Assembly: GCA_030267965.1 (NCBI GenBank)
Contig: BRYA01000104.1
Location: forward strand, 13,650 to 62,401
DNA: 48,752 nt
Origin: Triparma columacea
Lineage: Eukaryota > Sar > Bolidophyceae > Parmales > Triparmaceae
Direction: 5' to 3'
Made by a program: the position numbers and the translations under genes. This document shows positions 9,530-43,783 of the stretch, one piece after another; within the stretch, counting starts at the first letter, position 1, and each line of letters begins with the position of its first letter. The notes beneath the pieces are model-generated. The model worked only from the letters and a program-made list of their open reading frames with translations, made no database searches and had not been told where the DNA came from.

Positions 9530-10342
9530 TCATTCCTCCTTATCCCTCTCGAACAGCATGAGGCAGTAGTCGGTCCTGCTCTCGTCGTTGCTTACCAGTG
9601 CCTCCACCACCTCTTCCCATTTCCTTGCATTCTTCACGTTGAACAACGAGCACTGCCACCCGATGGCCCCCCCGAAGCTCCCCACGGTAGTGATGATCCC
9701 GTCGCCCCGAGGTAACCCCATGGTGAACTGGGAGCAGTAACGGAGGACGTCACCCTCACGAATTCCGGTAGAGGGGGAAGACTTGGTTATGGTGGCGAGG
9801 CCAGATACGGGGGCAAGGTCGAGGGAGAAGGGGACGGGGGCCCGGACCTGGACTATCTCCTTCCCTGCGGGTACCTCCAACTTAAGCTGGGCTGTTAGGC
9901 CCTTTTCTGTGGGGGGTATCGATACGAACTTTTTAAGAGGAGGTGACGGATATCGAGTGGGATTGGGTGTTAGGTAGGTGACTCTTTGATAGGAAGGTAC
10001 AGTGTTTGTTATGGGTTGTGTTTGTTCCTCAGTATGGTCGTTTGGCAGCCATTTCACGGTTGCTGGCGTTAAATCATTGCGCGTGTCTCCGAAATGCACG
10101 TCGCATATCATAGACACACATGAGGTATTGGGATATCTACATCAGCGGAACAACAACGCTGAGGTTGCGAAGTAAAAAGACTTCAAAAAGAGTTCATTAC
10201 GTACCATTTCTTCCATGCTGTTTAGTTTCATGTTTGATTTGATTCTAGTTTGATGGTAAATTGGTTTAATAATGAATGCTGAAGTAAAATTGATGGTAAT
10301 TACGAGTAAAAGGACGAGTGCCTTGCTGTGTCGATGAATCAT
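9530..10342 (-). CDS. Plastid-targeted protein of unknown function
   Basis: Two exons: 10342-10201 and 9981-9530, 197 residues. The N-terminus (RHSKALVLLLVITINFTSAFIIKP) is a hydrophobic signal peptide followed by a Ser-Ala-Phe cleavage site, the bipartite plastid-import signature of stramenopile algae. The mature part has short beta-strand-like segments (KGLTAQLKLEVPAGKEIVQV, GLPRGDGIITTVGSFGGAIGW) and ends LFERDKEE; I do not recognise the family. The intron uses GTAATG and AAAGAG, chosen because this pair restores frame and avoids the in-frame stops; the alternative donor GTACGT four bases upstream does not fit. The intron holds a box C/D-like RNA element, and the sequence around the exon 2 start is homologous to the linker of the upstream tandem array. 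Confidence 0.6.
10019..10153 (-). ncRNA. Intronic box C/D-like RNA, copy 0
   Basis: Lies in the intron of the plastid-protein gene. Terminal stem of 7 bp (TTGTTCC with GGAACAA), then GC-TGATGTA (box C) and CTGA (box D) next to the stem. The putative D' guide reads CCTCATGTGTGTCT before ATGA. The shared hairpin and the second variable loop (GCCAG...TGGC) are present. Confidence 0.55.
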
Positions 10343-10734
10343 AGTGGCTATTTAGGGCTATTTAGTGACTATAATGTGTGTAAGTGTAATGCAGTTGTAT
10401 TGAAATGTGTTTTAAATTGTGTTAAATTGTCGTAAATTGTCGTAGTGGACAGAATTTAAGTTATTTCTAATTTGGTTTGTGAAAGTCAGAAGAAGATTCT
10501 CGGAAATGGAGTACAACAACAGTATTGTGGGTTATTTACATCAGCGGAACATACAACATTCAACGTCTCAAACAACTTTGTGAACCTCTCCTTCTTCCCT
10601 TCCTTACCTGCATCGTCGAATGTGTGTGTGTGTGTAAAGGAGAGGGGGGATAGCGAATTCGAATGCGATTGTGTGTTAATGACTCTTACACAAGAAGGTA
10701 CAGTGTGAAGTAATAACAGCTTCTTGTTGTCATG

Positions 10735-10871
10735 TGTTTGTTCCTCAGTATGGTCGTTTGGCAGCCATTTCCTGGTTGCTGGCGTTTTATCATTGCACGT
10801 GTCTCCGAAATGCACGTTGCATATCAAAATTCGCAAGGGTATGTGGGTTATCTACATCAGCGGAACAAACA
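10735..10871 (-). ncRNA. Box C/D-like RNA, copy 1
   Basis: Minus-strand order: stem TGTTTGTTCC, three-base bulge GCT, box C core GATG, variable guide CATACCCTTGCGAATT, D' TTGA, conserved stem-loop GCGACGTG-type (here GCAACGTG), C' TGATAAAAC-type, hairpin with variable loop, constant segment CCAAACGACCATA, box D CTGA, stem GGAACAAACA. Confidence 0.6.
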
Positions 10872-11060
10872 ACATTCAACGTCTCAAACAACTTTGCAAT
10901 ACCTCTCCTTCTTTCCTTCCTTACCTGCATTGTCGAATGTGTGTGTGTGTGTGGGAGGAAAGGGGGGATAGCGGATATTGAGTGTGATTGAACATGGGTG
11001 TTAGGTGACTCTTACGCAGGAAGGTACAGTGTGAATTACTGACAGCTTGTTGTTGTCATG

Positions 11061-11198
11061 TGTTTGTTCCTCAGTATGGTCGTTTGGCAGCCATTTTCCG
11101 TTTGCTGGCGTTAAATCATTGCACGTGTCGCCGAAATGCACGTCGCATATCATACAACCTCGTGAGTTATGGGTTATCTACATCAGCGGAACAAAACA
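11061..11198 (-). ncRNA. Box C/D-like RNA, copy 2
   Basis: Same scaffold as copy 1; D' guide CATAACTCACGAGGTTGT before ATGA. One extra A in the 3' stem strand. Confidence 0.6.
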
Positions 11199-11386
11199 AC
11201 AGTCAACGTCTCAAACAACTTCGTGATCCTATCCTTATCTCCTTCCTTACCTGCATCGTCGAATGTGTGCGTGTGTGTAGGAGGAGAGGGGGGATAAAGG
11301 ATATCGAGTGCGATTGAAGATTGGTGTTAGGTGACTCTTACACAGGAAGGTACAGTGTTAACCTACTACAGCTTGTTGTTGTCATG

Positions 11387-11523
11387 TGTTTGTTCCTCAG
11401 TATGGTCGTTTGGCAGCCATTTGCCGATTGCTGGCGTTTAATCATTACGCGTGTCTCCGAAATGCACGTCGCATATCATACCTCACGTCAGATTGTGGGT
11501 TATCTACATCAGCGGAACAAACA
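11387..11523 (-). ncRNA. Box C/D-like RNA, copy 3
   Basis: Full scaffold with perfect 10-bp terminal stem; D' guide CAATCTGACGTGAGGT before ATGA. Confidence 0.6.
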
Positions 11524-11705
11524 ACATTCAACGTCTCAAACAACTTTGTGATCCTTTCCTTCTCTCCTTCCTTACCTGCATCATCGAATGTGTGTACGAG
11601 GAGGGGAGAACGACGACGGATATTGAGTGCGATTGAAGATTGGTGTTAGGTCACTCTTTCACAGGAGGGTACAGTGTTAACCTACTACAGCTTGTTGTTG
11701 TCATG

Positions 11706-11839
11706 TGTTTGTTCCTCAGTATGGTCGTTTGGCAGCCGTTTCGTGAACTGGCGTTATATCATTGCGCGTGTCTCCGAAATGCACGTCGCATATCAAACTT
11801 CTCACCAACTGTGGTATATTTACATCAGCGGAACAAACA
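11706..11839 (-). ncRNA. Box C/D-like RNA, copy 4
   Basis: Subfamily with AATATACC after box C and the shorter second variable loop; D' guide CAGTTGGTGAGAAGT before TTGA. Confidence 0.6.
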
Positions 11840-12027
11840 ACATTCAACATCTCAAACAACTTTGTGATACCTCTCCTTCTTCCCTTCCTTACCTGCATCG
11901 TCGAATGTGTGTGTGTGGGAGGGAGGAGAAAGGGGATAGCGGATATCGAGTGTGATTGAAGATGTGTGTTAGATGACTCTTACACAGGAAAGTACGTGTG
12001 AAGTAATAACAGCTTCTTGTTGTCATG

Positions 12028-12165
12028 TGTTTGTTCCTCAGTATGGTCGTTTGGCAGCCGTTTTCTTGTTGCTGGCGTTAAATCATTGCGCATGTCTCCG
12101 AAATGCACGTCGCATATCATATTCGAAATGTGTCGTGTGGTATATTTACATCAGCGGAACAAACA
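12028..12165 (-). ncRNA. Box C/D-like RNA, copy 5
   Basis: AATATACC subfamily; D' guide CACGACACATTTCGAAT before ATGA. Terminal stem perfect. Confidence 0.6.
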
Positions 12166-12354
12166 ACATTCAACGTCTCAAACAACTTTGTGATACCTCT
12201 CCTTATCTCCCTTCTTACCTGCATCATCGAATGTGTGTGTGCATGTGGAAGGAGAGGGGGGATAGCGAATATCGAGTGTGATTGAACATGGGTGTTAGGT
12301 GACTCTTACGCAGGAAGGTACAGTGTGAATTACTGACAGCTTGTTGTTGTCATG

Positions 12355-12491
12355 TGTTTGTTCCTCAGTATGGTCGTTTGGCAGCCATTTTTGCCTTGCT
12401 GGCGTTAAATCATTGCGCGTGTCTCCGAAATGCACGTCGCATATCATACTATCCTTGAGATTGTGGGTTATCTACATCAGCGGAACAAACA
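12355..12491 (-). ncRNA. Box C/D-like RNA, copy 6
   Basis: GATAACCC subfamily; D' guide CAATCTCAAGGATAGT before ATGA. Confidence 0.6.
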
Positions 12492-12669
12492 ACATTCAAC
12501 GTCTCAAACAACTTTGCGATACCACTCCTTCCTTACCTGCATCGTTGAATGTGTGTGTGTGTGTAGAAGGAGAGGAGGGATAGCGGATATCAAGTGTGAT
12601 TGAACATGGGTGTTAGGTGACTCTTACACAGGAAGGTAAAGTGTCAACCTACAGCTTGTTGTTGTCATG

Positions 12670-12804
12670 TGTTTGTTCCTCAGTATGGTCGTTTGGCAGC
12701 CATTTCACTTACTGGCGTTATATCATTGCGCGTGTCTCCGAAATGCACGTCGCATATCATAGATCAAACAGTTTTGTGGTATATTTACATCATTGGAACA
12801 AACA
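12670..12804 (-). ncRNA. Box C/D-like RNA, copy 7
   Basis: The bulge differs (AAT instead of GCT) but the GATG core of box C is kept, giving ATGATG with a purine at the consensus R position. D' guide CAAAACTGTTTGATCT before ATGA. Confidence 0.6.
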
Positions 12805-12995
12805 ACATTCAACATCTCAAACAACTTTGTGATACCTCTCCTTCTTCCCTTCCTTACCTGCATCGTCAAATGTGTGTGTGTGTGTGTGGAAGGAGAGAAA
12901 GGAAAGCGGATATCGAGTGTGATTGAACATGGGTGTTAGGTCACTCTTACACAGGAAGGTACAGTGTGAAGTAATAACAGCTTGTTGTTGTCATG

Positions 12996-13132
12996 TGTTT
13001 GTTCCTCAGTATGGTCGTTTGGCAGCCATTTAACGATTGCTGGCGTTTAATCATTATGCGTGTCTCCGAAATGCACGTCACATATCATACAAATCGACAA
13101 GTTGTGGGTTATCTACATCAGCGGAACAAACA
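12996..13132 (-). ncRNA. Box C/D-like RNA, copy 8
   Basis: GATAACCC subfamily; D' guide CAACTTGTCGATTTGT before ATGA. Confidence 0.6.
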
Positions 13133-13323
13133 ACATTCAACATCTCAAACAACTTTGTGATACCTCTCCTTCTTCCCTTCCTTACCTGCATCGTCGAATG
13201 TGTGTGTGTGTGTGTGGAAGGAGAGGGGGGATAGCAAATATCGAGTGTGATTGAACATGGGTGTTAGGTGACTCTTACACAGGAAGGTACAGTGTGATGT
13301 AATAACAGCTTCTTGTTGTCATG

Positions 13324-13460
13324 TGTTTGCTCCTCAGTATGGTCGTTTGGAAGCCATTTTTGGATTACTGGCGTTAAATCATTGCGCGTGTCTCCGAAAT
13401 GCACGTCGCATATCATAGCTACATTCGCCGTGAGGTATATTTACATCAGCGGAACAAACA
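13324..13460 (-). ncRNA. Box C/D-like RNA, copy 9
   Basis: One stem base has changed so that the pair is a G.U wobble in the minus-strand RNA but an A.C mismatch in a plus-strand RNA. D' guide CACGGCGAATGTAGCT before ATGA. Confidence 0.6.
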
Positions 13461-13521
13461 AGCAACAACCCTTTGCAATATTTCCCCTAATCTGGATTTG
13501 TCTGCGAGATGTCCATATAAA

Positions 13522-13585
13522 GTGCACGTCGCATATCATACACAAGAGAACGTTGTGGGTTATTTACATCAGCGGATCAAACAAC
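13522..13585 (-). ncRNA. Truncated box C/D-like RNA, copy 10
   Basis: Only the box C half remains: stem (with one change), GCTGATGTA, guide CAACGTTCTCTTGTGT, ATGA. The box D half is missing, so it is likely non-functional; it arose by a junction inside the copy 9 linker. Confidence 0.5.
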
Positions 13586-13766
13586 AATCAACGTCCTCAA
13601 ACAACTTTGTGATAGCTTTCCTTATCTCCTTCCTTACCTGCATCATCGAATGTGTGTGTGTGTGTAGGAGGAGAGGGGGGATAGCGGATATCGAGTATGA
13701 TTGTGTGTTAGGTGATTCTTCGACGGAGATTACAGTGTCAAGTAATACCAGCTTCTTGTTGTCATG

Positions 13767-13901
13767 TGTTTGTTCCTCAGTATGGTCGTTTGGCAGCCAT
13801 TTTTCTTACTGGCGTTAAATCATTGCGCGTGTCTCCGAAATGCACGTCGCATATCATATCACATTCATTGTTGTGGTATATTTACATCAGCGGAACAAAC
13901 A
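13767..13901 (-). ncRNA. Box C/D-like RNA, copy 11
   Basis: Last unit of the array and first to be transcribed if the array is read on the minus strand. D' guide CAACAATGAATGTGAT before ATGA; shorter second variable loop. Confidence 0.6.
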
Positions 13902-13980
13902 AGCAACAACCCTTTATCAATACTTCCCCAATCTGGATTTGTCTGCGAGATGTCCTCTCCTGCTTACATCTCCATTATAT

Positions 13981-14416
13981 TCCCTCAATCTCACCTTGTT
14001 TGTTCTATCTTGTTACCAATTTACGTGCAATAATGAGTATTTAGTGTGTGTGTGTGTCTATGTATGTATGAAGGAGTGCAGGAAAAGGGATGAAAAGGCT
14101 ACCCAAAGAAGAGTGAGATCGAGGTCTTTCAACCCAACCCAAAATCTTCCCCTCTCACGGTATTTTTGTTGGTAATTTGAGTGTTCATGTGTAGATGATT
14201 GAATAATTATGTTGAATTGGTCGAGATCATGAATTTTTGGGGGTCAAAACGGCTCAAAGATGGAATTATATCAAAATTCTGAATCAAGCCCAAAGTTCTG
14301 CACCTAGATTCCAAGAAAGCTTCCTTGGTCCTTATTAGTCCTTATTTAGTCCTTACTCGCCATAATTAGCCATTGTTAGTCATTTTCCTCCTCCTTTAAC
14401 CTAATTGTTCCTCAAT
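13981..14416. promoter_or_regulatory. Probable divergent promoter, RNA array / NFU1
   Basis: About 435 bases between the 5' end of the minus-strand array and the NFU1 start. No coding region. It holds a short repeated phrase (TAGTCCTTAT, TAGTCCTTAC) at 14337-14360 and AT-rich stretches. Promoter role is inferred from position only. Confidence 0.35.
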
Positions 14417-25329: not shown

Positions 25330-27203
25330 TTAAGCGCCCTCGACCCACTCAATTCCCTCCCCAACAATAAGTGTCCTCCCCGGTATACCCCCTTCAACGT
25401 TCGTCCCAATCCTGACCGTCTTCTCCTCGTCCTCCCCCCTGCTTTCCCCCACCACAACAAATCCCCTAACCCCCGTTTTGCATAGTTCCCCCGGCCTCCC
25501 GTTCGCCTTGAACGTTTCGTACGCGTCGTCCCCCATTACGGCCGCTACCGTTCCCTCCTTAACGCGCTCGATCTCCCTAACGTTGACGTTGCTGATGGCC
25601 TCGGACTGTCCCATCGGTAGCATGCTGCTCCCCACGGACACAACGCTAACCTGGAGGAACGTTAGGGAACTCCACTTCATAGTGGTCCAGTAGGGAGGAC
25701 CGGAGGGCGGGGATTTAGAACCGGAGGGATCGTCATCGCCTTCCTTACCCTTTTCTAACTTCCCCCTGGTGACTCCCCTGAAGTACCCTGCGCGGAAAGG
25801 GGGGGTGGGGGGGTGGTGGAGTGTAGTGAACAAGTGTTAGTGTGGTTTGCAAGCAAGTGCATTATTTTCCCCCCAACCTCTCGGTCCCCCCGTTTCTCTC
25901 ACCTGACGCCGTCGCCTTGCCCCCTCCCCCTGTCCTCTCCACCCCCCCGCTCTTAGGGATCTTAATGACTTTGACCCCCTCGACTGCTTCGGCTCTGGAC
26001 CGGAGGTAGTTGAAGCCAACGTTCCAGTCCAAGCATATCACGACGTTGGCGCCGAGGTCTGCGACAGCCTCCCACACTACCTCTGGTTCTATGCCTTCCT
26101 CTGGGGATAGGTGAGGGTGGGTTGGGTGGGTGGGTGTTTAGTTTCTGTCCTTTTCGTCAAGTTTGTCAAGAAGGTCTCCATAGTTGCCCGGCTCTGTCCT
26201 CACCTTCCCCCTGCATCCCCCCCTGTGGCATGACTCCAATCCACCCGCTCGCCCACTCCTTGATCCCCTCCTGCCTCCCCCCCTCCCTCGCCTTCCTCCC
26301 CCTCCCCTCAACGACGTCCCCGACCTTTCCCACGATCTCCTTGTACCACTCCTTCCCAGCCCCAACCTCGGGGAGGCCGAAGAACCAGCAGACTCCCCCG
26401 CCCTGGACCTTACCCCCGGACCCGGCCTCCCAGCAGGTGTAGTCCTGCGTGACACCCTTGTTACACCACTCGCCCTTTACTACCTTGGCCCCAACCGTTC
26501 CCTGCGCAGGCGTCAGGCCGTGCAGAACCCTGCCTGGGTCAAGGTTAAGGGCCAGCGGGGACCTCCGGACCTTCATGGCGTAGGAGAGGAGGGTCCTGTG
26601 TACAGTGTGTCTGCCTGACCTCCTGGAGCCGCAGATAATAACTTTGGGAGGGGGGGAGGTTGGGGGGGTGGTGAAGGGGGAGACGGAGGAGTGGAGGGCT
26701 GAGGTGTAGGCAGACTCCCTCATTACCTCGAGCTGGGCGTGGGTGTTTATTAGGGGTACGCAGTTGCAGTCTCCGTTGAATTCTGTTGTGAGGTAGCAGT
26801 CAGTGAGGACTTTAGATGGGAAGACAGTGAGGGTTGATGGTGCCAAGGTGATTGTTGGGTACGTTGGAATGGGCGTGTTGGTAGACGTGTTCCCTTGGCC
26901 ACTCTCCTCATCTAGCATTCCATCCATTCCCTCGTCTTTAAGCTTAAATATATCCTGTATCCCACCAATAAGTACTGTGGCACCAAACCACGTCCATATT
27001 TCATAGTCTCCTTCAACTAGGTCTGTAACTACGCCTAGTTCGCTACCCTTAAGCTCAGCTGTACCCTCAAGTATTGTTATTGATACAGCAGCATTGAGAG
27101 TTGTTGATTGAGGAGGAGTAAATGGGGTAGAGGGGACACGGAAGCGGAGAGAGTTGAGGGCTGGGATGGCTATCTTGTGGATTGAGGTGGAAGGGGTAGT
27201 CAT
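25330..27203 (-). CDS. CLP1: CLP1, mRNA cleavage/polyadenylation factor (degenerate P-loop)
   Basis: Exons 27203-26204, 26100-25903 and 25787-25330, 551 residues. CLP1 is a subunit of the pre-mRNA cleavage factor (and of tRNA splicing complexes in animals), with a polynucleotide-kinase fold. Seen: the N-terminal beta domain (LRFRVP ... ILEGTAELKGSELG ... YEIWTWFGATVLIGG), the central domain with P-loop GSRRSGRHTVHRTLLSYAMK near residue 196, LALNLDPGRVLHG, VVICLDWNVGFNYLRSR, and a C-terminal domain starting GYFRGVTRG. The P-loop has Arg-His where GK(S/T) is expected, so ATP binding may be weak or lost. An 85-residue serine/proline-rich stretch separates beta domain and P-loop. Introns: GTGAGG/CCCAG, GTGAGA/GCGCAG. 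The first exon is duplicated downstream at 28585-29722. Confidence 0.85.
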
Positions 27204-27377
27204 ATGTGTATAATATAGTCCTTGGTGGGAGTGTGATGGATTGGATTAGGAAGTAAGTGACGTTATGGTGAGATAATGGACAGATAATGGACAGATTATA
27301 TGAGGAGAAAAAGTGAGGGAGGAAGGAGGAGGAGGAGGAAGATTCTAACTTCGCGAAATCGCAATGCTTTTTATATT
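27204..27377 (-). promoter_or_regulatory. CLP1 upstream region
   Basis: Upstream of CLP1; the first ~120 bases are shared with the region upstream of the duplicate copy (identical phrases AGTAAGTGACGTTATGG and GAGGAGAAAAAGTGAGG), so the promoter was duplicated with the first exon. Specific elements were not recognised. Confidence 0.4.
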
Positions 27378-28455: not shown

Positions 28456-28584
28456 TCACATTCCCCTAACGCTGTTAACAATATCCTCAATATCCCCCTC
28501 AAGTACCTTCCTCGCGTTCCCCGTTTCATACCCGCTTCTCAGATCCTTAACTCTTTCCTCCGGGTCCAATACATAGTTCCTAAC
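28456..28584 (-). pseudogene. Orphan 3' exon fragment
   Basis: A 42-codon open segment (VRNYVLDPEERVKDLRSGYE ... ending RGM and TGA) follows an ACAACAG acceptor at 28585. Its codon use looks like real coding sequence, but its 5' part is missing because the CLP1 duplication starts at the same base. Joining it to the CLP1 exon through the 22-base remainder would be out of frame. I read it as the last exon of a gene cut by the duplication. Product unknown. Confidence 0.45.
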
Positions 28585-29618
28585 CTGTTGTCGGCTCTGT
28601 CCTCACCTTCCCCCTGCATCCCCCCCTGTGGCATGACCCCGATCCACCCGCTCGCCCACTCCTTGATCCCCTCCTGCCTCCCCCCCTCCCTCGCCTTCCT
28701 CCCCCTCCCCTCAACGACGTCCCCGACCTTTCCCACGATCTCCTTGTACCACTCCTTCCCAGCCCCAACCTCGGGGAGGCCGAAGAACCAGCAGACTCCC
28801 CCGCCCTGGACCTTACCCCCAGACCCAGCCTCCCAGCAGGTGTAGTCCTGCGTGACACCCTTATTACACCACTCACCCTTTACTACCTTGGCCCCAACCG
28901 TTCCCTGCGCAGGCGTCAGGCCGTGCAGAACCCTGCCTGGGTCAAGGTTAAGGGCCAGCGGGGACCTCCGGACCTTCATGGCGTAGGAGAGGAGGGTCCT
29001 GTGTACCGTGTGTCTGCCTGACCTCCTGGAGCCGCAGATGATAACTTTGGGAGGGGGGGAGGTTGGGGGGGTGGTGAAGGGGGAGACGGAGGAGTGGAGG
29101 GCTGAGGTGTAGGCTGACTCCCTCATTACCTCGAGCTGGGCGTGGGTGTTTATTAGAGGCACGCAGTTGCAGTCGCCGTTGAACTCGGTTGTGAGGTAGC
29201 AGTCAGTGAGGACTTTAGATGGGAAGACAGTGAGGGTTGATGGTGCCAAGGTGATAGTTGGGTATGTTGGAATGGGCGTGTTGGTAGACGTGTTCCCTTG
29301 CGTGTTCCCCTGGCCACTCTCCTCCTCTAGCATTCCATCCATTCCCTCGTCTTTAAGCTTAAATATATCCTGTATCCCACCAATAAGTACTGTGGCACCA
29401 AACCACGTCCATATTTCATAGTCTCCTTCAACTAGGTCTGTAACTACGCCTAATTCGCTACCCTTGAGCTCAGCTGTACCCTCAAGTATTGTTATTGATA
29501 CAGCAGCATTGAGAGTTGTTGATTGAGGAGGAGTAAATGGGGTAGAGGGGACACGGAAGCGGAGAGAGTTGAGGGCTGGGATGGCTATCTTGTGGATTGA
29601 GGTGGAAGGGGTAGTCAT
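28539..29618 (-). pseudogene. Truncated CLP1 duplicate
   Basis: Repeats CLP1 exon 1 (residues 1-333) plus about 100 bp upstream. The second and third exons are absent; after the exon 1 donor the frame runs into unrelated sequence and stops 19 codons later, so the C-terminal domain and the P-loop-domain tail are lost. Against copy 1 I count about 19 substitutions, only one changing the protein (Asp to Glu), and a 12-bp in-frame gain (second QGNT). The degenerate P-loop is shared, so that change predates the duplication. It could be expressed as a truncated protein. Confidence 0.8.
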
Positions 29619-29886
29619 ATGTGTATAATATAGTGCTTGATGAAGGAGTGATGGATTGGATTAGGAAGTAAGTGACGTTATGGAGAGATAATGGACAGAT
29701 TAGATGAGGAGAAAAAGTGAGGCAAAAGGCAAAAGAAAAAAGGAGGAAGGAGAGAGGGCCAAAGTGAGGCAAAAAGAAGGAGCTTAACCCACAACTCTCA
29801 TCACAACTCTCGATATACCTTCTTACACCATAAAAGAGCCATAAAAGAGCCATAAAAGTGCCATAAAAGAGCCGTCTTAGAAGCAA
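29619..29886. promoter_or_regulatory. Divergent promoter, CLP1 duplicate / ORC4
   Basis: 268 bases between divergent starts. The half next to the CLP1 copy is part of the duplication; the ORC4 side contains a four-fold CATAAAAGAGC repeat at 29830-29872, just upstream of the ATG. Confidence 0.45.
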
Positions 29887-31547: not shown

Positions 31548-31933
31548 GAAGATTTTGTTGTGCAATGAATGTTTGTCGCAAAATCTTTTTTGCAGTCTCA
31601 AGCACTGGACCCTTCTTCAGTTGTTCTTCCTCTCCTTCTTACTTTTTGTGAACATCAAGTTCGCTGCTCTTAAACAGTCGGTTTATACATTCTTCTCTTT
31701 CCATAAATATTTACAGCAGTAGGTAAGAAGGGCTTTACTGGGCTTAGTCCCTCGACCAATGTTCCGAAGGATTTTGGGAGATTGATGTGATTGGTTTGCA
31801 AAGCTTACAATCCCTCGCCCTCACGCTCCGTGGTGCACTGTGGCTGTCAATAGCCATCTCGCAGCTTTGGTGTATCAGATATCTACTCTTCGCCCATTAA
31901 TAACTTCCCCCTCGTCAACTGCATCAGCTTCAC
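31548..31933. other. Intergenic region, no gene seen
   Basis: T-rich 3' region of ORC4 followed by the leader of the Cys-rich gene. No RNA gene or repeat recognised. Confidence 0.4.
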
Positions 31934-34900
31934 ATGTCCAAAAAAAGTCTCCCGCCCCCTCGATCACAATTCCTCCGAAGATACCAAAACCCAGTATTGA
32001 TTGCTCTCGCCTTACTGTTGCTATTTCTGCCATCTTCAATTGCGCCTCCTCCGCCAGGTACAACTTGCGACTCATGGGGGTGCGACTACTGCCTCCATCG
32101 TGTGCCCACAGTGGAGTGTGGTTGTAAAAAAGATTGTTTGAATTTAGATGATGCCGCTTACCTGTTGGCGCTACCTGTCTGTTCAGACATCAATGAAGGC
32201 GAACTATGCAGGAGCTCAAACAATCTGGAGTGTGGAACCAACAACGAGACGAAGAACTGCTTCATTGCAAGCGTTTACAGAAGACTTGCTTGTGAAGTAT
32301 GTGAAGCGGGTAAATACCTAGCAGATAACGGGAAGTGTACCTGCAGCGACTGCAGGTGAGGAAAAGGAGAAAGTGGGCTACCATCACATCACTGCACAAA
32401 CAATAAACTCTTTACTCACATCCCTTCCACTCCTACCTCTCTACCACCTCGCAACTCTCCTCCCAGCGCGGGCAAGACTAGCGTCGCTGGAGGTGATTGC
32501 ACTACGTGTTCTGCAGGGACCTACGCTAGTTCAGGGTCCCCAATCTGCAGCGTTTGTCCCTCCGGGCGGTACTCCTACAGCGACGCCTCAGCTTGCACGG
32601 AATGTGGGAGAGGGAAATTCAACGTTGACTCGACAGTCGGCGGAACTCGGGAAATGCATGATGACGAGGGTGACTGTGAAGTCTGTCAAAAGGGGATGTA
32701 TAATGATGCTGAAGGTGCGACACAATGCGAAATTTGCGAGAAGGGGAAGATCACTACAACGGAGGGTCAGGCTGAATGCACAGACTGCCCTCGGGGAAAG
32801 TTTCTGTCAGACGCCGCCACCGACTCATCGCATCACGATCAAGAATCGGATTGTTCTGTGTGCGGGTATGGTAAGATCGCGACTGAAACGGGATCGTCCT
32901 CCTGCAGTGATTGCTCTGCCGGGCGATACCAAGAGGATGATGGTGTCGCTGCTGCCAGTCATGATGACACTGGTGACTGCAGCATATGCACGGCTGGCTC
33001 TAAGAGCTCAGCGGCGTCTCGCGATTGCACGACGTGCTCGTCGGGAGAATGGAGCGACTCTGATGCATCAACTTGTATAGAATGCGTGGCCGGCAAGTAT
33101 CTCTTGGATGATGGTACCGACGTATCTCTGCACAGCTCAGAGTCACTGTGTCTAGTATGTTCTAGCGGTTACTACTCTCCGGAACCTCGATCGCGACAAT
33201 GCACGGCGTGCGAAAGCGGAAAGTACCTTCCTGTCGATGGAGTTGATGCCACCCATGAAGACCATGACGCTGAGACGGATTGTGTAGTGTGCGAGGGGGG
33301 AAAGATCACTACAACGGAGGGTCAGGCTGAATGTACAGACTGCCCTCGGGGAAAGTTTCTGTCAGACGCCGCCACCGACTCATCGCATCACGATCAAGAA
33401 TCGGATTGTTCTGTGTGCGGGTATGGTAAGGTCGCGACTGAAACGGGATCGTCCTCCTGCATAGATTGCCCTGCCGGTCGATACCAAGAGGATGATGGTG
33501 TCGCTGCTGCCAGTCACGATGACACTGGCGACTGCAGCATATGCACGGCTGGCTCTATGAGCTCAGCGGCGTCTCGCGATTGCACGACGTGCTCGTCGGG
33601 AGAATGGAGCGACTCTGATGCATCAACTTGTACAGAATGCGTGGCCGGCAAGTATCTCTTGGATGATGGTACTGACGTATCTCTGCACAGCTCAGAGTCA
33701 CNNNNNNNNNNNNNNNNNTGTGCGAGGGGGGAAAGATCACGGCAACGGAGGGTCAGGCTGAATGCACAGACTGCCCTCGGGGAAAGTTTCTGTCAGACGC
33801 CGCCACCAACTCATCGCATCACGATCAAGAATCGGATTGTTCTGTGTGCGGGTATGGTAAGATCGCGACTGAAACGGGATCGTCCTCCTGCACAGATTGC
33901 TCTGCCGGGCGATACCAAGAGGATGATGGTGTCGCTGCTGCCAGTCACGATGACACTGGCGACTGCAGCATATGCAAGGCTGGGTCATACGCTCCTGATG
34001 AAGGGTCGCGTTTTTGTGCCCTTTGTCTTCAAGGGACTTACCTTTCTGACCGTGCAACCGACGAAACTCTTCATGTCAATCAGAATCAATGTCTCATCTG
34101 TGGAGGGGGGAATTATTCTTCTACTCCGGGTTCAGCAATATGCCAACGGTGTCCCGCAGGCACTTACATTAGTGACCTAGGTTCATCCCGAGAGGCTCAC
34201 GATGACAATTTAGATTGCAAAATTTGCGCTTCAGGGAAATTTGCGCCCAAACTCGCTTCTACTGTTTGCAGTGATTGTCCTCTAGGGCGCTACCTTCGGG
34301 ACGATTCCCAAAATGCTACATTGCACTCGTCTACTGAGTCATGTTTGGTTTGTAGCAAAGGCACGATTGCCACAAGCCCTTCATCGCCATCTTGTTCGAA
34401 TTGCAGCGCTGGGCGATACTTGAATGATGACGGTAGCAACGAAATAAACCACGACGCTCTTGAAGACTGTCAGGTTTGCTCAGCGGGACGATTCTCTACC
34501 GAGGCTTCACATAGCTGTTCTATTTGCCGTGCCGGGTATTGGTCATTTGCCGAACAAGGTTCATGTAACGCTTGTTCGGGGGGCAAGTTCTTAGAAGACG
34601 CTGCTTTAGACGAGTCGCTTCATGACTCTGAATCCAAATGCACTGTCTGCTCAGGAGGAAAGTACTCAACTACTGCTTCGCCAATTTGCACATCTTGCCC
34701 AGTTGGGCGGTACCTTGACGATGAAGCTGAAGACAGTGCTCTCCATGATTCTCTTTCCTCGTGCAAACTTTGCGAGGGTGGAAGCTATAATAATATTGTC
34801 TCTCTCGCGGTTCCATGCTCACCATGCCCTGCCGGACGTTTCCAACCTTTTGATGCAGACGCGTCGGCTTCAGACCGCGATAGTCTTAGTTCCTGCCTGC

Positions 34901-37900
34901 TCTGCGCAGCGGGAAAATACCTCAAAGATGATGCTAACTTCGCAAGCCTTCACTACACTGTGGATGCATGCATCGACTGCTCACGAAATACAATTTCAAA
35001 GATCGACGGTGCCATCACTTGTCAGGACTGTCCGTTCGAGACATTCTCTCAAGTTGGATCGACATCGTGCTACGCCTGTCCTCCGGGTAACGTGTGTGAC
35101 AGTCACGGAAATCAAACGGCATGCAACGCTGGAAAGTACAGCAGCGGAGCAGAAGCGACTTGTCTTGATTGCCCTGTCGGTCATTACTGCCCAGCCGAAT
35201 CTGACAAAATTGAGTGCGCTCCCGGCTCATATCAGTCGATGGTTAGCCAGTCACTGTGCGAAGTTTGTGAAGCGGGTACATACACAAGTAGCAGCGCCTC
35301 GATTGTCTGCGACGTATGCGATGCAGGTTTTTATCAGCATAATTCACAAATGACCGAGTGCATTGCTTGTAGCGGTGGACGGTATAATGCAGACAGCGGT
35401 ACAAAAAAAGAGAACCACGACAGCTCGGATGATTGCTTACTATGTGAAAATGGGAAGTATGGTGCCCCGGCGAGCAGCTCATGCAAAATTTGCCTTCAAG
35501 GCCAGTGGAGCACGGTTGGTGCCGAAACGTGCACGATGTGCGGCTTAGGCAAATATCTCTCTGACAACGGCACAGATCATACGTTGCACAACAGCGAGAG
35601 CAAGTGTCTAGTATGCGAGGGAGGTCACTACAATCCGAGCCCAGGTCAGGCAAATTGCATGGCTTGTGGGCTCGGGAAATATCTTGCCCCAACTGGTGTA
35701 GTTGAAGCTCACATTTCTGAAACCTTCTGCAGAACGTGCGAAAGTGGGAAATTCAATAATATGCTTGGCCAGAGTCAATGCGTCGACTGCCCTGTTGGAA
35801 CGTTCCTCCGAGGCGAAGCTAATGAAGCTGTTGGTCACGATGATGTGTTGGATTGCAAGATCTGCGGAGGTGAGCTGGACGAGAGCCCGCCGTTGTCGAA
35901 GCTGAATCTGTCATTTCAGTCAGCTTCCTCTTCTCTTCGTTTTTACAGCCCCTTCCTTGCCCCCCCTTGCCCCCCCCTTCTCCCCCCCTCAACTCCCTCA
36001 CCCCTCCCCTCACTCCCTCACACCTCCCTCCCTCAAGTTGGGACATTCTCTTTGGGAGGTCAATCAGATTGCACCTATTGTGAAGCTGGGACTTACATTA
36101 GTGATGATGCCACAAATTCCATCTGGCACGATAGCTCGGCAGATTGTCTCTTCTGCGGCGAAGGGAAGTATAGCGAAGAAGGTGCTGCAACTTGTTCAGA
36201 ATGTCCCAAGGGCAGATACAATCAACACGCGGCAGCTGCATCGGCGACGCATGCCGGGCTGAGTTCCTGTTCAATCTGCGAAAAAGGGAAGTTCGCGAAT
36301 CATTCGGGGCTTAGTGAATGTCTGAATTGTCCTGCTGGCTCCTCAAACTCAAACGACGACTCTAATGAATACGATCATGATGATCTGTCTGATTGTACTG
36401 TGTGCGCCTCTGGAACTTGGAGCTCCAAGGGATCTTCAGACTGCACACCTTGTGTGTCAGGGCGATACCTCCCTTATTCGAATAATTACGTCGACCATGA
36501 TGCCGTAGGGAAATGTCTGGACTGTGACGCTGGCGCATCATCGGTGCAAGGCTCAGACAGTTGCTTTGTGTGCCTAGCAGGGGAGTTTTCTGAACGGGGG
36601 GGGCTTTGTATGAAATGTGCTAAAGGTCGGTTCCTCTCGGACAACGGTTCTTCACCATCAGAGCATTTAGAATCAAAATGTCTTGTTTGCGCCGGTGGCC
36701 ACTACAATACCAACACCGGCGCAAGCACTTGTCAACCATGCGTCGCTGGGAAGTTCTTGGATGACACAACTGATCCGACAAGACACGACATGGAGTTGGA
36801 TTGCGCCATCTGTCCCGAGGGGAAAACGAGCAATGAAGGTGACCAGTTCTGCTCTGCCTGCGATGTTGGAAAATATAATGAAGACCAGGCGACGCACGAA
36901 CGTCACCACGATGAGGACGAAGACTGTTTCGTGTGTGAGGCGGGGAAATATTCGTCCATGGTAGCAAGCCCTTCATGCACGGTTTGTCCTACTGGACGAT
37001 TCATCGCAGACAACGGTACGGATGCTTCAAAACACAGCTTTCTCGAAAGCTGTCAGATTTGTAGAGCAGGCAGGTATGCTCCGCATACAGGCACGGCGTC
37101 TTGCATCCTATGTTCCTCGGGAAAGTACCTCGAAGACGATGCAGAGACTGCAGGGCTCCACGTGGGAGAGGAAAATTGCGAAAACTGTTCTGCCGGTGAG
37201 GGCTCCGAAGACGGCGCTTCAGGATGCTCAACTTGCTCCGCCGGGAAGTACTCGTCCTCACAAGGCACTCCTTGCGTGAATTGTGCAGCTGGCAAGTACC
37301 TTTCAGATGAAGCAACAAGTTCAGAATACCACAATTCTGAAAGCTACTGTCAAAACTGCGATTTCGCTACGTATAGTGACGCTGGATCACCTCTCTGTGT
37401 CAATTGTCCTCCTGGGCGCTTCAACAATTATGACGATTCCGACCACACCACACACGACTCTTTGAATGACTGCGAAAATTGTTTTGCAGGCAAGTACAAC
37501 AACTTGCCGAACGCAACTGCTTGCCTCCCATGCCCGAAATCAACCTATGAAGACGAAAGGGGCTCGACAAAGTGTGTTAAAGGATGTGATCCCGGATTTA
37601 CAGCGCAGGCGTTCGTTCGCGAAGGCGCCAAGGCCGAAGAAGAATTAAGTTGCTCAGCTTGTTACTGCGCTATCGGACAGGTTTGCGATGGCGTTAACGA
37701 AGAAGGAGACAACATATTTAAGACCTGTCAGGCGGGAAGATATGCCGACCGGGTCGGGTTGACGAAATGCAAGTTGTGTGAAGCTGGAAAGTTCGCCGCT
37801 GATGAGATGTCTGGGCTTTGTAGCGACTGTTTGCCTGGGTTTATTTCTGGTGAAGAAGCCGTTGCATGTCAACAATGTGCTCTTGGGACAAAAAGCAGTG

Positions 37901-40900
37901 CTGATAACACTGAATGTCTTCTCTGCAATCCCGGAGAGTTCAGCGGGAGCTCGCCAACAAACGTGTGCAATCTATGCCCGTCAGGCACAATTCCGACGCC
38001 ACAGCAAGATCTATGTGTGGCCTGCCCAGCGGGGAAATTTTCTGTGGCTGGAGACAGCAATTGCACCGCATGTGAGCAAGGGAGTTTTGCCTCGTCTGGT
38101 AGTAGCACATGCGCTAGGTGCATCGCGGGGAAAATTAGCAACGCTGCACTCACCGGGTGCACTTCGTGCCACGCTGGGACTTACTCCGGAAACGGTGCTT
38201 CACAGTGCCAGCAGTGCGATATAGGAAAGGTCGCACTCGAAGAGGCAAGTATGTGTCATTCATGCTCTTCGGGGAAGAAGTCTTCTCCCACGAATGACTT
38301 TTGCTTCGACTGTCCCGCAGGGAAATTTAGTGGCATCTCCGAGGGTTCGTGCACCGTGTGCCCTCTCGGCAAGTACGCTTCCGAAAATGCCACGGGTACG
38401 TGTTCTTTGTGCCCCGGAACCCAAGAATCATTGCCTGATTTTACAGGCTGCCGTTGTAAGGTTGGCTTCGTCCCCATCACCGAGAACGGGATTCTTACCT
38501 GTCAGTGTGATGTCGGTTTCGAGTTTATCCAATCTCTGCAGCAGTGTGCGATATGCAGGGCTGGCGCTTACAAGGACTTTATAGGGAACGAACCTTGTCT
38601 CTCTTGCGACCAAAACGCTGTAAAAGATTCCTTTCAAACCTCTCACAGTATTATGGTGCTTTTAGGAGATGATCACGCTGATCAGCATCCTCCGATAAAC
38701 AAAACTTCCTGCGCGTGTGAACGTAACTACTACCTCAATCCGCATCCACCTTACGGTGCAGAATACGCTGATTTCATCGGCGAGTGCAAGGAATGTCCAG
38801 ATGGGACAAAATGTAACGAACGAGGCGTTACGTTGGCAACGTTGCCGGTGATGGATGGCTTCTGGCGTTCCAGCGGCGACTCTGCAAATGTGGTTGAGTG
38901 CTACACGAAATCAGCGTGTGGAGGGCAGAAAAACGTTTCTGGACTTCTCGGGACCACTAATGTCGACGATCAGTGTACGATCGGGCATCGTGGTCCTCAG
39001 TGCAATGTCTGCGAGGACGACTACGTGATATCAGTGCTGGGTGGATGCGAGGTTTGCGGCGAAACCTTCATACCTCCTCAGATGATTTATGCGGCCTTAG
39101 TAATGCTCGGTTTCCTTCTTTTAGTTCTTTTCTTGGTCCGCAAACGCATTTACCAAAGACTTGTCCAATTCCATATCTGTGGCAGTAATAAAGAGAGAGA
39201 GAGCTTAATGCGAGACAGCGGCGGAGAGTCAAGGGTTAGTAACGTTTCACCGCGGAGGGGGAGTGTTGGCATGTCCCCCTTTGCGACTGAGATGAAGAAT
39301 AGGAATTCGTCGTTTGACCTTGTTGACCTTGGTAAGGAACTAACAGAAGAGGAAGTATATCACTTGAGGAAGAATCGCAATTCGATTTGGAATCGAGCCA
39401 AAACGAAAGGCAAGATCCTCGTGGCGTGTTACCAGATTGTCTCACAGTACGAGAATATCCTGGACGTTAGGTATCCAGCACTTTTTGAGGACTTCGGGAG
39501 GAGAATTGAAAGCGTTATGGTGAGGGTGGCGAGGGGAAACGGGGGGGGGGGCAATGGAAGATGAAGAGGGGAGGGGGGTAGGTTTTTGCAAGTGCTTTTC
39601 TAACCGCAATCCGTTCTTCGCATTGCCCTCCCCCCCTCCTCTAGAGTTTGGACGCCCTCAAGCTGACGGCCGCTGGCTGCGTGGTTGATACTACATTTCA
39701 CCACACCCTCTTGCTTGCAACAATCGGACCACTTGCGGTTGTCGGGCTAATTTTCTTGTTTTATATGTTCATTACCCGCGTGAAACTCCCAATGCAGAAG
39801 TTTGCCTCAGATCCAAAAATAGATGCGGAGAAGCGTAGCTTTGCTGCAACCAAACTGAAGGACGGATGCTACCTACTGTTTCTCGGGCTCACATATCTAG
39901 TTTTCAACAGCGTTTCTACGACAATATTTAAGACGTTCCAGTGTGAACACGTCGGGGATGATCCTGTTGAATATCTGCGAAGCGATCAATCCATTGACTG
40001 TGATTCGCCTGGTCATCGCCTTGACAAAATCTACGCAATGAGCATGATATTGGTGTATCCCCTTGGAATCACCGTCTTTTATGCTTACGTTTTGGTGAAG
40101 AAGAGGAGAGAGTTGAGCAGTGATGAGCGGGACCGGGATACCAAGTTGATCAAGATTTCGTTCCTGTGGGAGATGTACAAACCGAGGTATTGGTACTTTG
40201 AGGTCATTGAGTGCGTGCGGAGGTTGATGATGACTGGAATGCTTGTGTTGGTCAGGCCAGGGGAAACTACTCAAGTAGCTGTTGCCATGCTGTTCGCGAT
40301 CATCTCGATTGTACTTTACACTCATTTACGTCCTTTTGAGAACCCACACGACAACCGACTCGCAATAGTGTCGCAGTGGGCGATTTTTTTCACGCTCTTC
40401 GCCGCAATGCTGATCAAGACGAAAGTTGATGACGAAGACGATTATGACCAAACGCTCTTCGGACTCATCTTAGTCGCATGTAATTGTACCGCATTTGTGC
40501 TCGCCATATGGCAGGCCGTCATTCCAATGACAGAAACCCTTTTCAGCATGTTATTTCATAAGACGACAGTGTTAACCGAATCCCAAAGAGGGCAGCTTGA
40601 CATTAGAGGTTTAACAGAATGGTACGATTCGAAGAAAATCTATAAGACCGAGGTCGAAACTTTTATGGTTTCGGCAAAGGCAAATGGAAAGGTGCACAAG
40701 AAACTTTGGTCCGAGTTGGAGATTTCCGGAGAGGGCTTTCGAGCATACAACATGGCTCTCATGACTGCAAATGTTGAGGAGGCTGGCTGGAAATCCATCG
40801 AGGAGGACTATGGAGACGATGAGGACTTCAAGTATTGGCTTAACGAGTGGTTGACAGGAGCAGAGGCACATTGGCGTTGTAGTTCACCTGATGAAACCGG

Positions 40901-43783
40901 GAGCGGGTACGTTGATCAAGTCCGCTGTCGATTCCCGATTTATCAAGACTACGATCGCGTCCGTGACTTTTTTATCAACGAAGACGGGGAGACTCGCTAC
41001 GACGAAGAAAACCGAACGGGGTTTCAGGAGTTTAGGAAGAGTAAAGATCGCACCTTCCCCCAACGAAAGCTATATTCTGTGGTCAAAAGAATGGGGGCGT
41101 CGATTCCTGTGTTTGGACTGAAGAAAAGGGAGTTCTTAATGGAAGAGTGGAGAGAGGATATGAAATATCAAAGCGAAAGCGGCGAAGAAAGTGATTGTCT
41201 CCTCGTCACGGCGAGATCAATTCGAGAGAACCACATTCGAACAAAGGACGACACCCACAAAGATGGCTTCGAGCGGGGTGAGATGGAGCTGTATTCGTTC
41301 TTATTGAAGGATTGTGGAAGCGGGGTTACTATGTGTACTTTCGTGGGAGGAGGTCTGAGATTGAAGGGCATTTTCGAGTTGATGGGCCGTCAACTCTATC
41401 TTCAATTCGTAATTAGGGTCGTAGATTCCGTCATCGTGCAGATTGCGTCGGAGACAGGCGAGACAGACTTTAAAGAAGATGAAAAGATGTCGAAAAGTTC
41501 ACGCTGGCTCATGAAGTTCGGCACAAAGGGGATGGCGAAAGATCGACAGAGAATTGTCAAGAAACGGCGTGGAAGCAAGCTTCAGGCCGTTAACCCACTG
41601 CAAGCGAAGAGAGCACCTACAAGCACCAGTGATGGTGATGGTGATGATGATGATGGCCATGGAAGCATCGAGATGAAGTCGATCGCTGACAAGCGGAGAA
41701 GTTGGATGGAGCATAAAAGGAGTTCAAATGAAGGCTCCATGAAAGACGTTAGTAGCTTCACTACAAGAGCAAAGCGGAAGAAGAGGTAAGAATGGACGAG
41801 AGATCGGAGGGCGAGAAAATGTAGTCCAATGAATAAAGCCGCGACACAACTCTGCAACACACCCACTCATGTAACTATCTCTACGACTTGTCGCTCAACA
41901 GTATTGTTGTCAAGAAATCAGATATTTCTTCCTCGAAAGAAGATGATCAAAGCCCCCTCATCGCAATGAACGGAAGAATTGCGGAGCTGGTATCAGAGCT
42001 TGAGTCGGCATCGCGTGCTAGTTCACTTGAACAAAATGAGAATAAGAAAAAAGAGCTTGCCATTAGGGACCTTAACTTGAAGCTCAAGAATCTTGAACGT
42101 GAAAAGGCGGGCGTCGACAAGGCTCGGTCAACCCTTTTAGCAAAGGTTGGGCGTCTTGAGTCTGAGATGGAGGAGGAACGCAAGGAAATGAAAAGGTGGA
42201 TCAAAATGCTTGAGAGCGAGGTCGAAGCCTCACGGAAGGGGAAAACTGTTGTGAAAGTATCTTCTCGAGACGACGCTGTGAAAAGGCCGAGAGGAACTTC
42301 CGCAATGGATCTGCATGCAAGTAGTCTGGTTATAAAGCAGGATCATAAGGTTCAAAGAGCATCGGTAGCGCTGCCTCCGGCTCCAGTGGAGGATAATAAT
42401 TCTGTTGAACCCCCACCAGTGCCAACCAAGCCTGAGAAGAGCCAACGACGCTCTTCCCTCATGGGAACGATCAAAAGTGCCATAAGTCTTGTAAAGAGCA
42501 GCAGCAGTTTGAAGGAAGTCGACGAGGGCGACCACGAAGTCGGTTGGGAAGCCTCCCGTGCAGCGGAAGCTCGTGCCGCAGAAGCCTCGGAAATTAAGAA
42601 GAATGTCGAGAGAATGCAGAAAGAAATAGAGACAAAAAAGGCAGAAGCCTCTCGTGCGGCGGAGGCCTCTCGTGCGGCGGAAGCTAGTGCGGCGGAAGCT
42701 CGCGCGGCGGAGGCTCGTGCGGTGGAAGCTCGTGCGGCGGAAGCCTCTCGTGCAGCAGAAGCCTCTCGTGCAGCGGAAGCTCGTGCAGAAGATGCTCGTG
42801 CCGCAAAAGCCTCGGAAATTAAGAGGAATGTCGAGAAAATGCAGAAAGAAATAGAGTCAAAAAAGGCAGAAGTCTCTCGTGCGGCGGAGACCTCTCGTGT
42901 GGCGGAGACCTCTCGTGCGGTGGAGACCTCTCGTGCGGCGGAGGCCTCTCGTGCGGCGGAACCCCCACGTGCAACTGATGCAACCCCGACAACGGTTACA
43001 ACTCCGACAACGTTGACAAAAGAGGCGGTCAAAGTTAACGCCTCTTTATCTAAATTTGACGTGTACAAGAAGGATCGAAGTCGTCGTAGATCATCAGTAG
43101 GTGCTCTTGCAGCGTCAAGCATTCGCGCGAGAAGACAAAGTGCCGCTAATCAAGTTACAAGGACGAGTTCTGCTGTACCGCCAGTGATCGATGAAGAATC
43201 TTTTGAAGCTGTCACTAACGCGACATTTGATAATGATGAGAGCTTCAAGGTTCTAAATCCCATGGCGGGGGCTATTGCTTCGCGAAAGATCTCGGAGCCC
43301 CCTTCTCTGGTGGCGAAATCAGCCGACAGCGACAAATCTGAAGAGAAATGGAAGGTTTATTTCAGCGAAGATTACAAGAAGTATTTTTTCAGTAGGGGCG
43401 ATGAAACTGGGTGGGTAAAGCCCGAGAGCTTCACTCTGAGTGAAGAGGGGGTAGAAATTGACGCCCGTCTCAAGATTGGTGCTGATGCTGTCGTTAAAGG
43501 GAAGGACATGAAGATTACAGTGATGAAGGGAAAGGACGTGATTGATGTTGGAGGAGATCCAGAGAAGAGAAAGAGGCATGTTGTGTGTTGGTCGTCGGGG
43601 GAAGATAATGGCTGGTTGTCGACCCTGGACATTCTCAAGGTAGGGAAAACAGCCAAAATGGTGCGCATAAACAGAAGGGAAGGGCATATGGTCGCATTTA
43701 CCTTTGCTGATGCAGCACTGGCCGGGGAGTGGAAAGAGATGATCACCATCTTATGGGAGATTGAGGGACAAGAGGGGCGTTAA
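31934..43783 (+). CDS. Giant Cys-rich multi-TM receptor-like protein
   Basis: Exons 31934-32355, 32467-35869, 36038-39519, 39645-41785, 41902-43783. With the assembly gap (33702-33718) taken as 141 bp the exons sum to a multiple of three and give about 3817 residues; as assembled, 17 N shift the frame. Layout: signal peptide or anchor (NPVLIALALLLLFLPSS), then over forty repeats of the C..C..G(K/R)Y...C..C ephrin-receptor-like/GCC2-GCC3 type covering about 2300 residues, an EGF/TNFR-like closing part, TM helix (MIYAALVMLGFLLLVLFLV), linker, and a seven-TM-like block (TLLLATIGPLAVVGLIFLFYMF, CYLLFLGLTYLVF, MSMILVYPLGITVFYAYVLV, RRLMMTGMLVLV, VAVAMLFAIISIVLYT, WAIFFTLFAAMLI, GLILVACNCTAFVLAIW). 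The C-terminal cytoplasmic part has a coiled coil, an Ala/Arg/Glu minisatellite region, and a WW/PH-like end. Probably a plasma-membrane sensor; ligand unknown. Confidence 0.85.
32747..33900 (+). repeat. 555-bp tandem repeat in Cys-rich ectodomain
   Basis: AAGATCAC(T/G) and following sequence recur at 32747, 33302 and 33733. The first two are 555 bp (185 codons) apart and about 98% identical; the third is only 431 bp away because the 17-N gap falls inside the second unit. Confidence 0.85.
33702..33718. other. Assembly gap (17 N), real size probably 141 bp
   Basis: In the first 555-bp unit the bases corresponding to this gap are 33147-33287, 141 in number. That length restores both periodicity and reading frame. 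Confidence 0.75.
35870..36037 (+). other. Stop-free, in-frame intron of Cys-rich gene
   Basis: GTGAGC donor and CCTCAAG acceptor around a C/T-rich stretch without cysteines, unlike its surroundings. It is 168 nt, a multiple of three, with no stop, so retention would add 56 residues. Confidence 0.6.
42545..42965 (+). repeat. Ala-Glu-(Ser/Ala)-Arg minisatellite
   Basis: Many 15-bp units (GCGGCGGAAGCTCGT or GCGGCGGAGGCCTCT type) encode EASRA/EARAA pentads in the cytoplasmic part of the Cys-rich protein. Two longer blocks (EIKKNVERMQKEIETKKAE) split it. Confidence 0.85.

Follow-up and report, generated by a model that had tools for sequence, protein, structure and literature searches.

Known systems and the Triparma array

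Box C/D guide RNAs are usually seen as a fixed set that serves ribosomal RNA (rRNA) and small nuclear RNA (snRNA). Here we examine a stretch of the Triparma columacea genome that carries a tandem array of box C/D-type units on its minus strand. The stretch is 48,752 nucleotides (nt) long (assembly GCA_030267965.1, contig BRYA01000104.1, forward-strand positions 13,650 to 62,401), and we refer to all of it as the window. We argue that these units probably belong to a family of orphan box C/D-type guide RNAs that are encoded in introns, number ~350-360 and differ in specificity from one copy to the next. They would be orphans because no rRNA match was found in the part tested.

Several described systems resemble this one in part. 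The mammalian SNORD115 and SNORD116 are likewise tandem and intron-encoded, with a box C/D scaffold and no known rRNA target. Here, however, nearly all the copies read differ at the guide position, and the family is also spread over many contigs. Introner elements are similar introns that occur at more than one genomic site, as some of these appear to do. The difference is that the conserved part here is a C/D-like RNA, and the B-type single copies that we examined by eye share little beyond the core. Recursive splice sites have the same CAG/GTAAG junctions and zero-length exons (in splice sites a slash marks the cut), but here there would be ten putative ones in one presumed intron, produced by tandem duplication.

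In design the family is closest to the TIGR arrays. The TIGR-Tas report (PMC12045711) places those arrays in prokaryotes and their viruses. It describes 36-nt guides, a Tas protein encoded beside the array, and two short spacers that adjoin the boxes with no kink-turn. The likeness to that description lies in arrays of C/D-type guide units, two variable segments per unit and a connection with the Nop domain. Our units, in contrast, are ~125-nt intronic cores with a kink-turn, and their variable segments are one of ~12 nt and one of ~5 nt in a loop. Two defining TIGR features were looked for and are absent here. There is no Nop-domain match on the window's contig, so no Tas-like neighbour of that kind. 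The spacer rule given in that report does not hold either: one ~12-nt segment lies before the D' box, and the second, of ~5 nt, is in a loop away from the boxes.

A probable minus-strand box C/D-type RNA family

The window is part of contig C104 in our numbering, and the genome searched comprises 37.85 Mb in 789 contigs. The family has ~350-360 copies across it, scattered over many contigs and mostly inside introns. A 30-nt piece of the core, with at most 3 mismatches, finds 351 places, and a 27-nt piece from the core's other end, an independent probe, finds 360; the reversed control of each finds none. We read 184 of these copies, from fetched loci, and 182 could be parsed. Counts per 137 or 179 refer to earlier stages of this set, in which 137 of 139 and 179 of 181 copies were parsed. 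Viral contigs hold no exact match to a 26-nt core piece.

On the minus strand the 5' half of the unit reads GUUCC, a 3-nt bulge, GAUG or GAAG, a linker ending in CCACAA or similar, a variable segment and U-AUGA. The 3' half reads hairpin GCG(A)CGUG...CACGCGC, AUGAU[UA] and GCCAGCAA; the second variable segment follows, and after it come AAAUGGC, a constant stretch, CUGA and GGAAC. Of 137 copies, 136 have CTGA (CUGA) as box D. The forms of box C (CUGAUGU, AUGAAGA) are degenerate. Our parser looks for the bulge with GAUG or GAAG and tolerates 1-3 differences from these motifs; it assigns 108 of 179 copies to a bulge with GAUG and 71 to GAU with GAAG, assignments of which a few may be wrong. The GAU-GAAG copies form a second large subfamily that again has a 3-nt bulge ahead of a G-A core. 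A kink-turn requires two G.A pairs after a 3-nt bulge, and both subfamilies fit this rule. The bulge itself is mostly GCU, AAG, AAU or GAU. The idea that it may change while the box C core stays, first drawn from a single copy in the window, is borne out by the ~180 copies read, in which G-A is kept across varying bulges. The D' and C' boxes (AUGA or UUGA, and AUGAU[UA]) are degenerate too. Position 1 of D' and position 6 of C' co-vary: AUGAUA is found in 6 of 6 UUGA copies and in 38 of 172 AUGA copies.

The original prediction, made on the letters of the window, gave each core a 10-bp terminal stem. The stem is there, but its common part is 5 bp (GUUCC/GGAAC). Across 106 distinct stem pairs, positions 1-5 are paired in 97-100% and positions 6-10 in 49-74%, while pairing at positions 8-14 is at the level of shuffled partners. 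The outer TGTTT/AAACA is present in 25 of the 106. Among the cells at positions 1-5, 16 are wobbles and 7 are unpaired, and parsing errors may account for some of the 7.

Pairing also speaks to the strand. In an alignment of 50 copies every pair of the terminal stem and of the D'-C' hairpin is formed (100%), and each of the 18 changes that affect one side alone gives G.U or U.G on the minus strand, where the opposite strand would have A.C. This extends beyond the window a strand argument that had been made inside it. Two terminal-stem pairs are changed on both sides, both in a single copy (L029). None of 500 shuffles reached any of five pairing measures, a comparison in which the relatedness of the copies is uncontrolled. 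Since box C, box D, the 5-bp stem and the D'-C' hairpin are kept, and since the G.U changes are strand-specific, a minus-strand box C/D-type RNA is well supported at the sequence level. The box C/D-like geometry originally read on this strand now has ~180 copies, wobble-only one-sided changes and a nearly invariant box D behind it. Three sequence features expected of a box C/D RNA are present: boxes able to form a kink-turn, a terminal stem, and D'/C' with a guide position upstream.

A hypervariable guide position

Three things were missed in the original prediction: the hypervariable D' guide position, the intron nature of the units and the existence of hundreds of members. The variable segment lies directly upstream of the D'-like box, where positions -14 to -3 have an entropy of 1.84-2.0 bits (137 copies). 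Its edges are sharp, with 0.2-0.3 bits at -2 and -1 and 1.0-1.1 bits at -15 and -16. Among the 127 of the 182 copies with a recognised linker it is 12 nt long in 95 and 11-13 nt long in 123. The 182 parsed copies have 180 distinct 12-mers. Pairwise distances between 12-mers (179 copies) match the random expectation, apart from an excess of two identical pairs and one pair with a single mismatch. The 12-mers have a G+C content of 40%, against 52% for the window. In a second variable segment, 107 copies show 5 positions at 1.85-1.98 bits, and 29 others have a shorter form. It lies in a hairpin loop closed by GCC/GGC and does not adjoin a box.

In the window, where all coordinates given here are window positions, the 12-nt segment of the copy at 13001-13127 lies at 13090-13101 on the minus strand, as placed by entropy and coordinates. 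From the start to the middle of the array its counterparts, placed by coordinates and also on the minus strand, are at 13859-13870, 13418-13429, 12762-12773, 12449-12460 and 12122-12133. The remaining ones are at 11798-11809, 11481-11492, 11155-11166, 10829-10840 and 10113-10124. The stretch that holds the second variable segment (~5 nt) of the copy at 13001-13127 is at 13032-13039 on the minus strand, by entropy and alignment.

What is new is that hundreds of copies share an otherwise near-constant intronic scaffold and yet have a hypervariable guide position. We know of no precedent for such a position. A search of the literature, which covered subscription journals in part, found no report of such a family.

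The scaffold, the strand, the splice-site setting, the hypervariability and the lack of an rRNA match in the part tested were read from the DNA. From these we infer expression, assembly into a ribonucleoprotein (RNP), a base-pairing function and a class of targets. In the scenario that we favor, the host intron would be spliced and the RNA trimmed to a ~125-nt core closed by GUUCC/GGAAC. Boxes C and D would then form a kink-turn that binds 15.5K/Snu13, NOP56, NOP58 and fibrillarin. The ~12-nt segment upstream of U-AUGA (D') would be the antisense guide, and the ~5-nt segment in the next hairpin loop could provide an accessory contact. Homogenisation would act on the scaffold, whereas guides would be kept or gained individually, one per copy, and this would yield hundreds of specificities.

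The intron setting

A 5' splice motif occurs within 110 nt upstream of the core in 172 of 179 copies, mostly at 50-69 nt. The same motif is found for 866 of 5000 random stretches (17%) and for 7 of 179 copies on the other strand. GTAAG alone gives a similar picture, with 160 of 179 copies against 745 of 5000 random stretches (15%); the other strand again has 7 of 179. Downstream of the core, 49 of 179 copies have the splice motif as well; there a GTAAG belongs to the linker of the family itself. We examined 14 loci with few copies (17 in all) by eye, and several of these copies clearly lie in sense between plausible splice sites of protein-coding genes.

The ~325-bp unit is repeated on the minus strand of the window from 10.0 to 13.9 kb, and Tandem Repeats Finder reports a period of 326 bp, 9.0 copies, 85% matches and a score of 3969. 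The core is 124-128 nt long in each full unit of the window. The array, its strand, boxes, bulge, hairpin and ~325-bp spacing had all been described correctly. The count of copies needs revision. A tandem array and a copy in a presumed intron do exist, but eleven full copies plus one had been counted, and the covariance model (R1, built from 50 copies and used to call full copies and remnants alike) finds 11 in all, 10 in the array and one in the intron, together with two remnants. All are on the minus strand. In transcription order the array has full copies at 13772-13896 (146.8 bits), 13329-13455 (with a U.G wobble in the terminal stem), 13001-13127, 12675-12799 (with the bulge AAU in place of GCU), 12360-12486, 12033-12160, 11711-11834, 11392-11518, 11066-11192 and 10740-10866. 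A degenerate remnant lies at 13467-13578 (32.5 bits), and a truncated one at the array's end, 10496-10550 (20.3 bits, E 0.0096). The eleventh full copy, supported by both the model and its splice sites, is at 10024-10151, in the intron that would come next in the presumed host gene.

Ten junctions in the array link one unit to the next, and at each a 3' splice site directly abuts a 5' splice site. They have the form CGACGATGCAG/GTAAGGAAGG with at most 3 differences from the motif, and lie on the minus strand at 10598-10618, 10915-10935, 11241-11261, 11566-11586, 11883-11903, 12209-12229, 12527-12547, 12848-12868, 13176-13196 and 13628-13648. This arrangement is what one expects of a whole intron duplicated in tandem. 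These CAG/GTAAG junctions (10598-13648) also resemble recursive splice sites with zero-length exons, a putative role. A candidate first 5' splice site, AACAAG/GTGAGATTG, lies ahead of the array at 13986-14000 (minus strand), and a candidate last 3' splice site, CAAATTAG/AAATAAC, lies past it at 10460-10474 (minus strand). The presumed coding exons of the host gene are at 9530-10346 (minus strand) and would encode a plastid-targeting-like N-terminus (MIHRHSKALVLLLVITINFTSAF), a feature that suggests an ochrophyte alga. They appear to be interrupted by the intron with the last copy, which would run on the same strand from GAAATG/GTACGT (10196-10210) to CCCCACAG/AAAAGG (9900-9914). Pfam names no domain in the presumed last exon. 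Judged from these signals, the array probably makes up a single 5' intron of a gene on the minus strand, and the eleventh copy would lie in that gene's next intron.

One can imagine that these are simply self-spreading, introner-like introns. The C/D-like core would then be kept for intron stability or splicing, and the 12-mer and 5-mer would be loop positions saturated with unconstrained change. The window array does look like a row of tandem introns. By eye, the A-type copy at locus L036 has family-like intron sequence out to both splice sites of what is apparently an ordinary coding-gene intron, and at L046 and L018 family-like sequence reaches the neighboring CAG/GTAAG junction. By eye, duplication of the whole intron to a new site is indicated for L036, but not for the B-type singles examined. 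What speaks against this explanation is the relation between the guides and their flanks.

Guides and the ancestry of their flanks

We compared flanks of 50 nt upstream plus 110 nt downstream for 176 units, which gave 10520 pairs at 60% identity or more. Unconstrained sites should not outpace their flanks. However, in the 9 pairs with flanks at least 95% identical the 12-mers differ at a mean of 8.9 of 12 positions, against 8.7 at random, and none of the 9 has fewer than 7 mismatches. The converse is also seen. Two copies on contig C87 have the 12-mer, the 5-mer and the linker in common, and yet their flanks are just 73% identical, so that this pair keeps all 12+5 letters. On C66 two neighbors are the same throughout the core, and their flanks are 89% identical. 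In another neighboring pair, with flanks 93% identical, the 12-mers are one mismatch apart and the 5-mers differ. Both pairs with identical 12-mers also have identical 5-mers. Unrelated 12-mers in near-identical flanks, together with identical guides in less similar flanks, suggest that scaffold and introns are homogenised and guides kept or replaced separately. We therefore consider the introner-like explanation unlikely.

The same decoupling raises another alternative. Guides might be renewed as a block at copying, by targeted mutagenesis or by an acquisition like that of CRISPR-type spacers, instead of being kept by selection while the flanks homogenise. In favor of renewal, the closest flank pair (98.8% identical) still differs at 9 of 12 guide positions, the 12-mers look mutually independent, and their G+C content is lower than that of the window. 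Against renewal, a few copies have the same or nearly the same guides, and no enzyme or source was identified. Gene conversion of the flanks would account for the decoupling without a new mechanism. Wholesale renewal is quite unlikely in our opinion.

Targets and machinery

Several results count against a guide function, and the rRNA test is one of them. Two short patterns did not find the organism's own rRNA; the proxy was seven eukaryotic ribosomal DNA (rDNA) contigs catalogued under bacterial records. The 3' end of the small subunit is present in 5 of the 7, a 5.8S motif in 5, and a large-subunit (LSU) motif in all 7, which was the criterion for fetching them. The sarcin-ricin motif is in none, so the test covers rRNA up to the 3' part of the LSU. 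On this proxy none of the 179 guides has a 12-nt complement in the rRNA sense strand, against a shuffled mean of 0.6. Candidate targets at the guides' own loci fared no better: for 96 copies the mean best match was 8.74 of 12 in sense and 8.61 in antisense, against 8.71 at other loci. A composite target of 12-mer plus 5-mer had 0 matches for both of the two guides tried. The second of the two shared guides (17 nt) has no genome match outside the family with 0-1 mismatch. The 12-mer shows no complementarity to the 5-mer of its own copy (107 copies). Rfam has no match in the window, and 10000-14000 with five other loci gave only chance-level matches below threshold. Of the 50 aligned copies, 9 do not form the proposed D'-C' pair, and the predicted fold stability is ordinary (z of -0.05, -0.46, -1.75 and +0.23 for the four copies folded).

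Ordinary methylation guides for rRNA or snRNA, one per site, would have the same C/D architecture and intron location. However, shorter matches on the same proxy are also at the shuffled level, with 2 against 3.0 at 11 nt, 14 against 14.7 at 10 nt and 60 against 56.8 at 9 nt. The test was confined to rRNA, with snRNAs outside it. It makes rRNA unlikely as the target, and ordinary modification guides are a very improbable explanation of the family. The constant stretch ahead of box D was also compared with rRNA; its longest runs are 7-10 pairs including G.U, a comparison that has no control and is unconvincing. A repeat family with no RNA function, similar to a short interspersed element (SINE) or a satellite, would explain high copy number and tandem arrays, but the wobble changes, specific to one strand, and the fixed location in sense orientation after a 5' splice motif leave it with almost no credence.

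Other searches concern the guides at large. In the fetched DNA outside the family the 12-mers have 7 matches, against 7.4 (standard deviation (sd) 12.7) when shuffled. Pairing of guides with each other gives 18 cases at 8 nt against 13.0 (sd 3.3), and 7 and 9 nt are as shuffled; we do not take this as a signal. The second shared guide has 7 places: its 2 own copies, 1 other family copy and 4 with two mismatches, against 3 in the control. Apart from the copies themselves, the 12-mer common to the two C87 copies matches 5 places in the genome, as many as its reversed control (5). One of these 5 is an 18-nt perfect complement that includes the unusual linker CCACGA. It lies at 1501-1518 of locus L082, on the sense strand of an open frame of 502 codons. 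The chance of six further letters in 5 matches is ~1 in 800, an estimate made post hoc. Pfam gives no family for this frame, which is tentatively reminiscent of a dynein heavy-chain tail. No target or target class is claimed.

If these RNAs are guides, the candidates that remain would be messenger RNAs or other transcripts, or foreign nucleic acid. At its boldest the proposal is a eukaryotic, spliceosome-delivered repertoire similar to TIGR, in which hundreds of ~12+5-nt guides are continually diversified and steer a C/D RNP, or a derivative of it, against transcripts or invading nucleic acid. We regard this version as rather doubtful. If true, the C/D RNP would have turned programmable in a eukaryote, and small nucleolar RNAs would be linked with the TIGR guides of prokaryotes. 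The guides are legible directly from the genome, so their targets can be tested with transcriptome, methylome and virus data.

The Nop domain has four matches at three loci genome-wide. Three is presumably the number to expect for the ordinary snoRNP and splicing proteins NOP56, NOP58 and PRP31. Two of them (L074 and L075) have Nop domains, with NOP5NT in one. No nuclease domain is named in the frames scanned at L074 and L075, and the frame scanned at L076 gave no family. Nothing similar to a Tas-like effector was found, in a search that was not exhaustive.

Other observations

At about position 2854 of locus L044, on the minus strand, an isolated piece of the core hairpin precedes CTGAGGAAC, and the rest of the unit is absent. 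Elsewhere in the window a gene is present twice on the minus strand, at 26166-27245 and 28539-29660, and by eye the two proteins are nearly identical. The plus strand from 31904 to 41789 has long frames for cysteine-rich repeat proteins and then a frame with a TRP-channel match (PF06011); a run of N near 33.7 kb breaks the cysteine-rich region. Tandem repeats with periods of 186 bp and 210 bp lie within long open frames at 403-1113 and 47812-48429, respectively.

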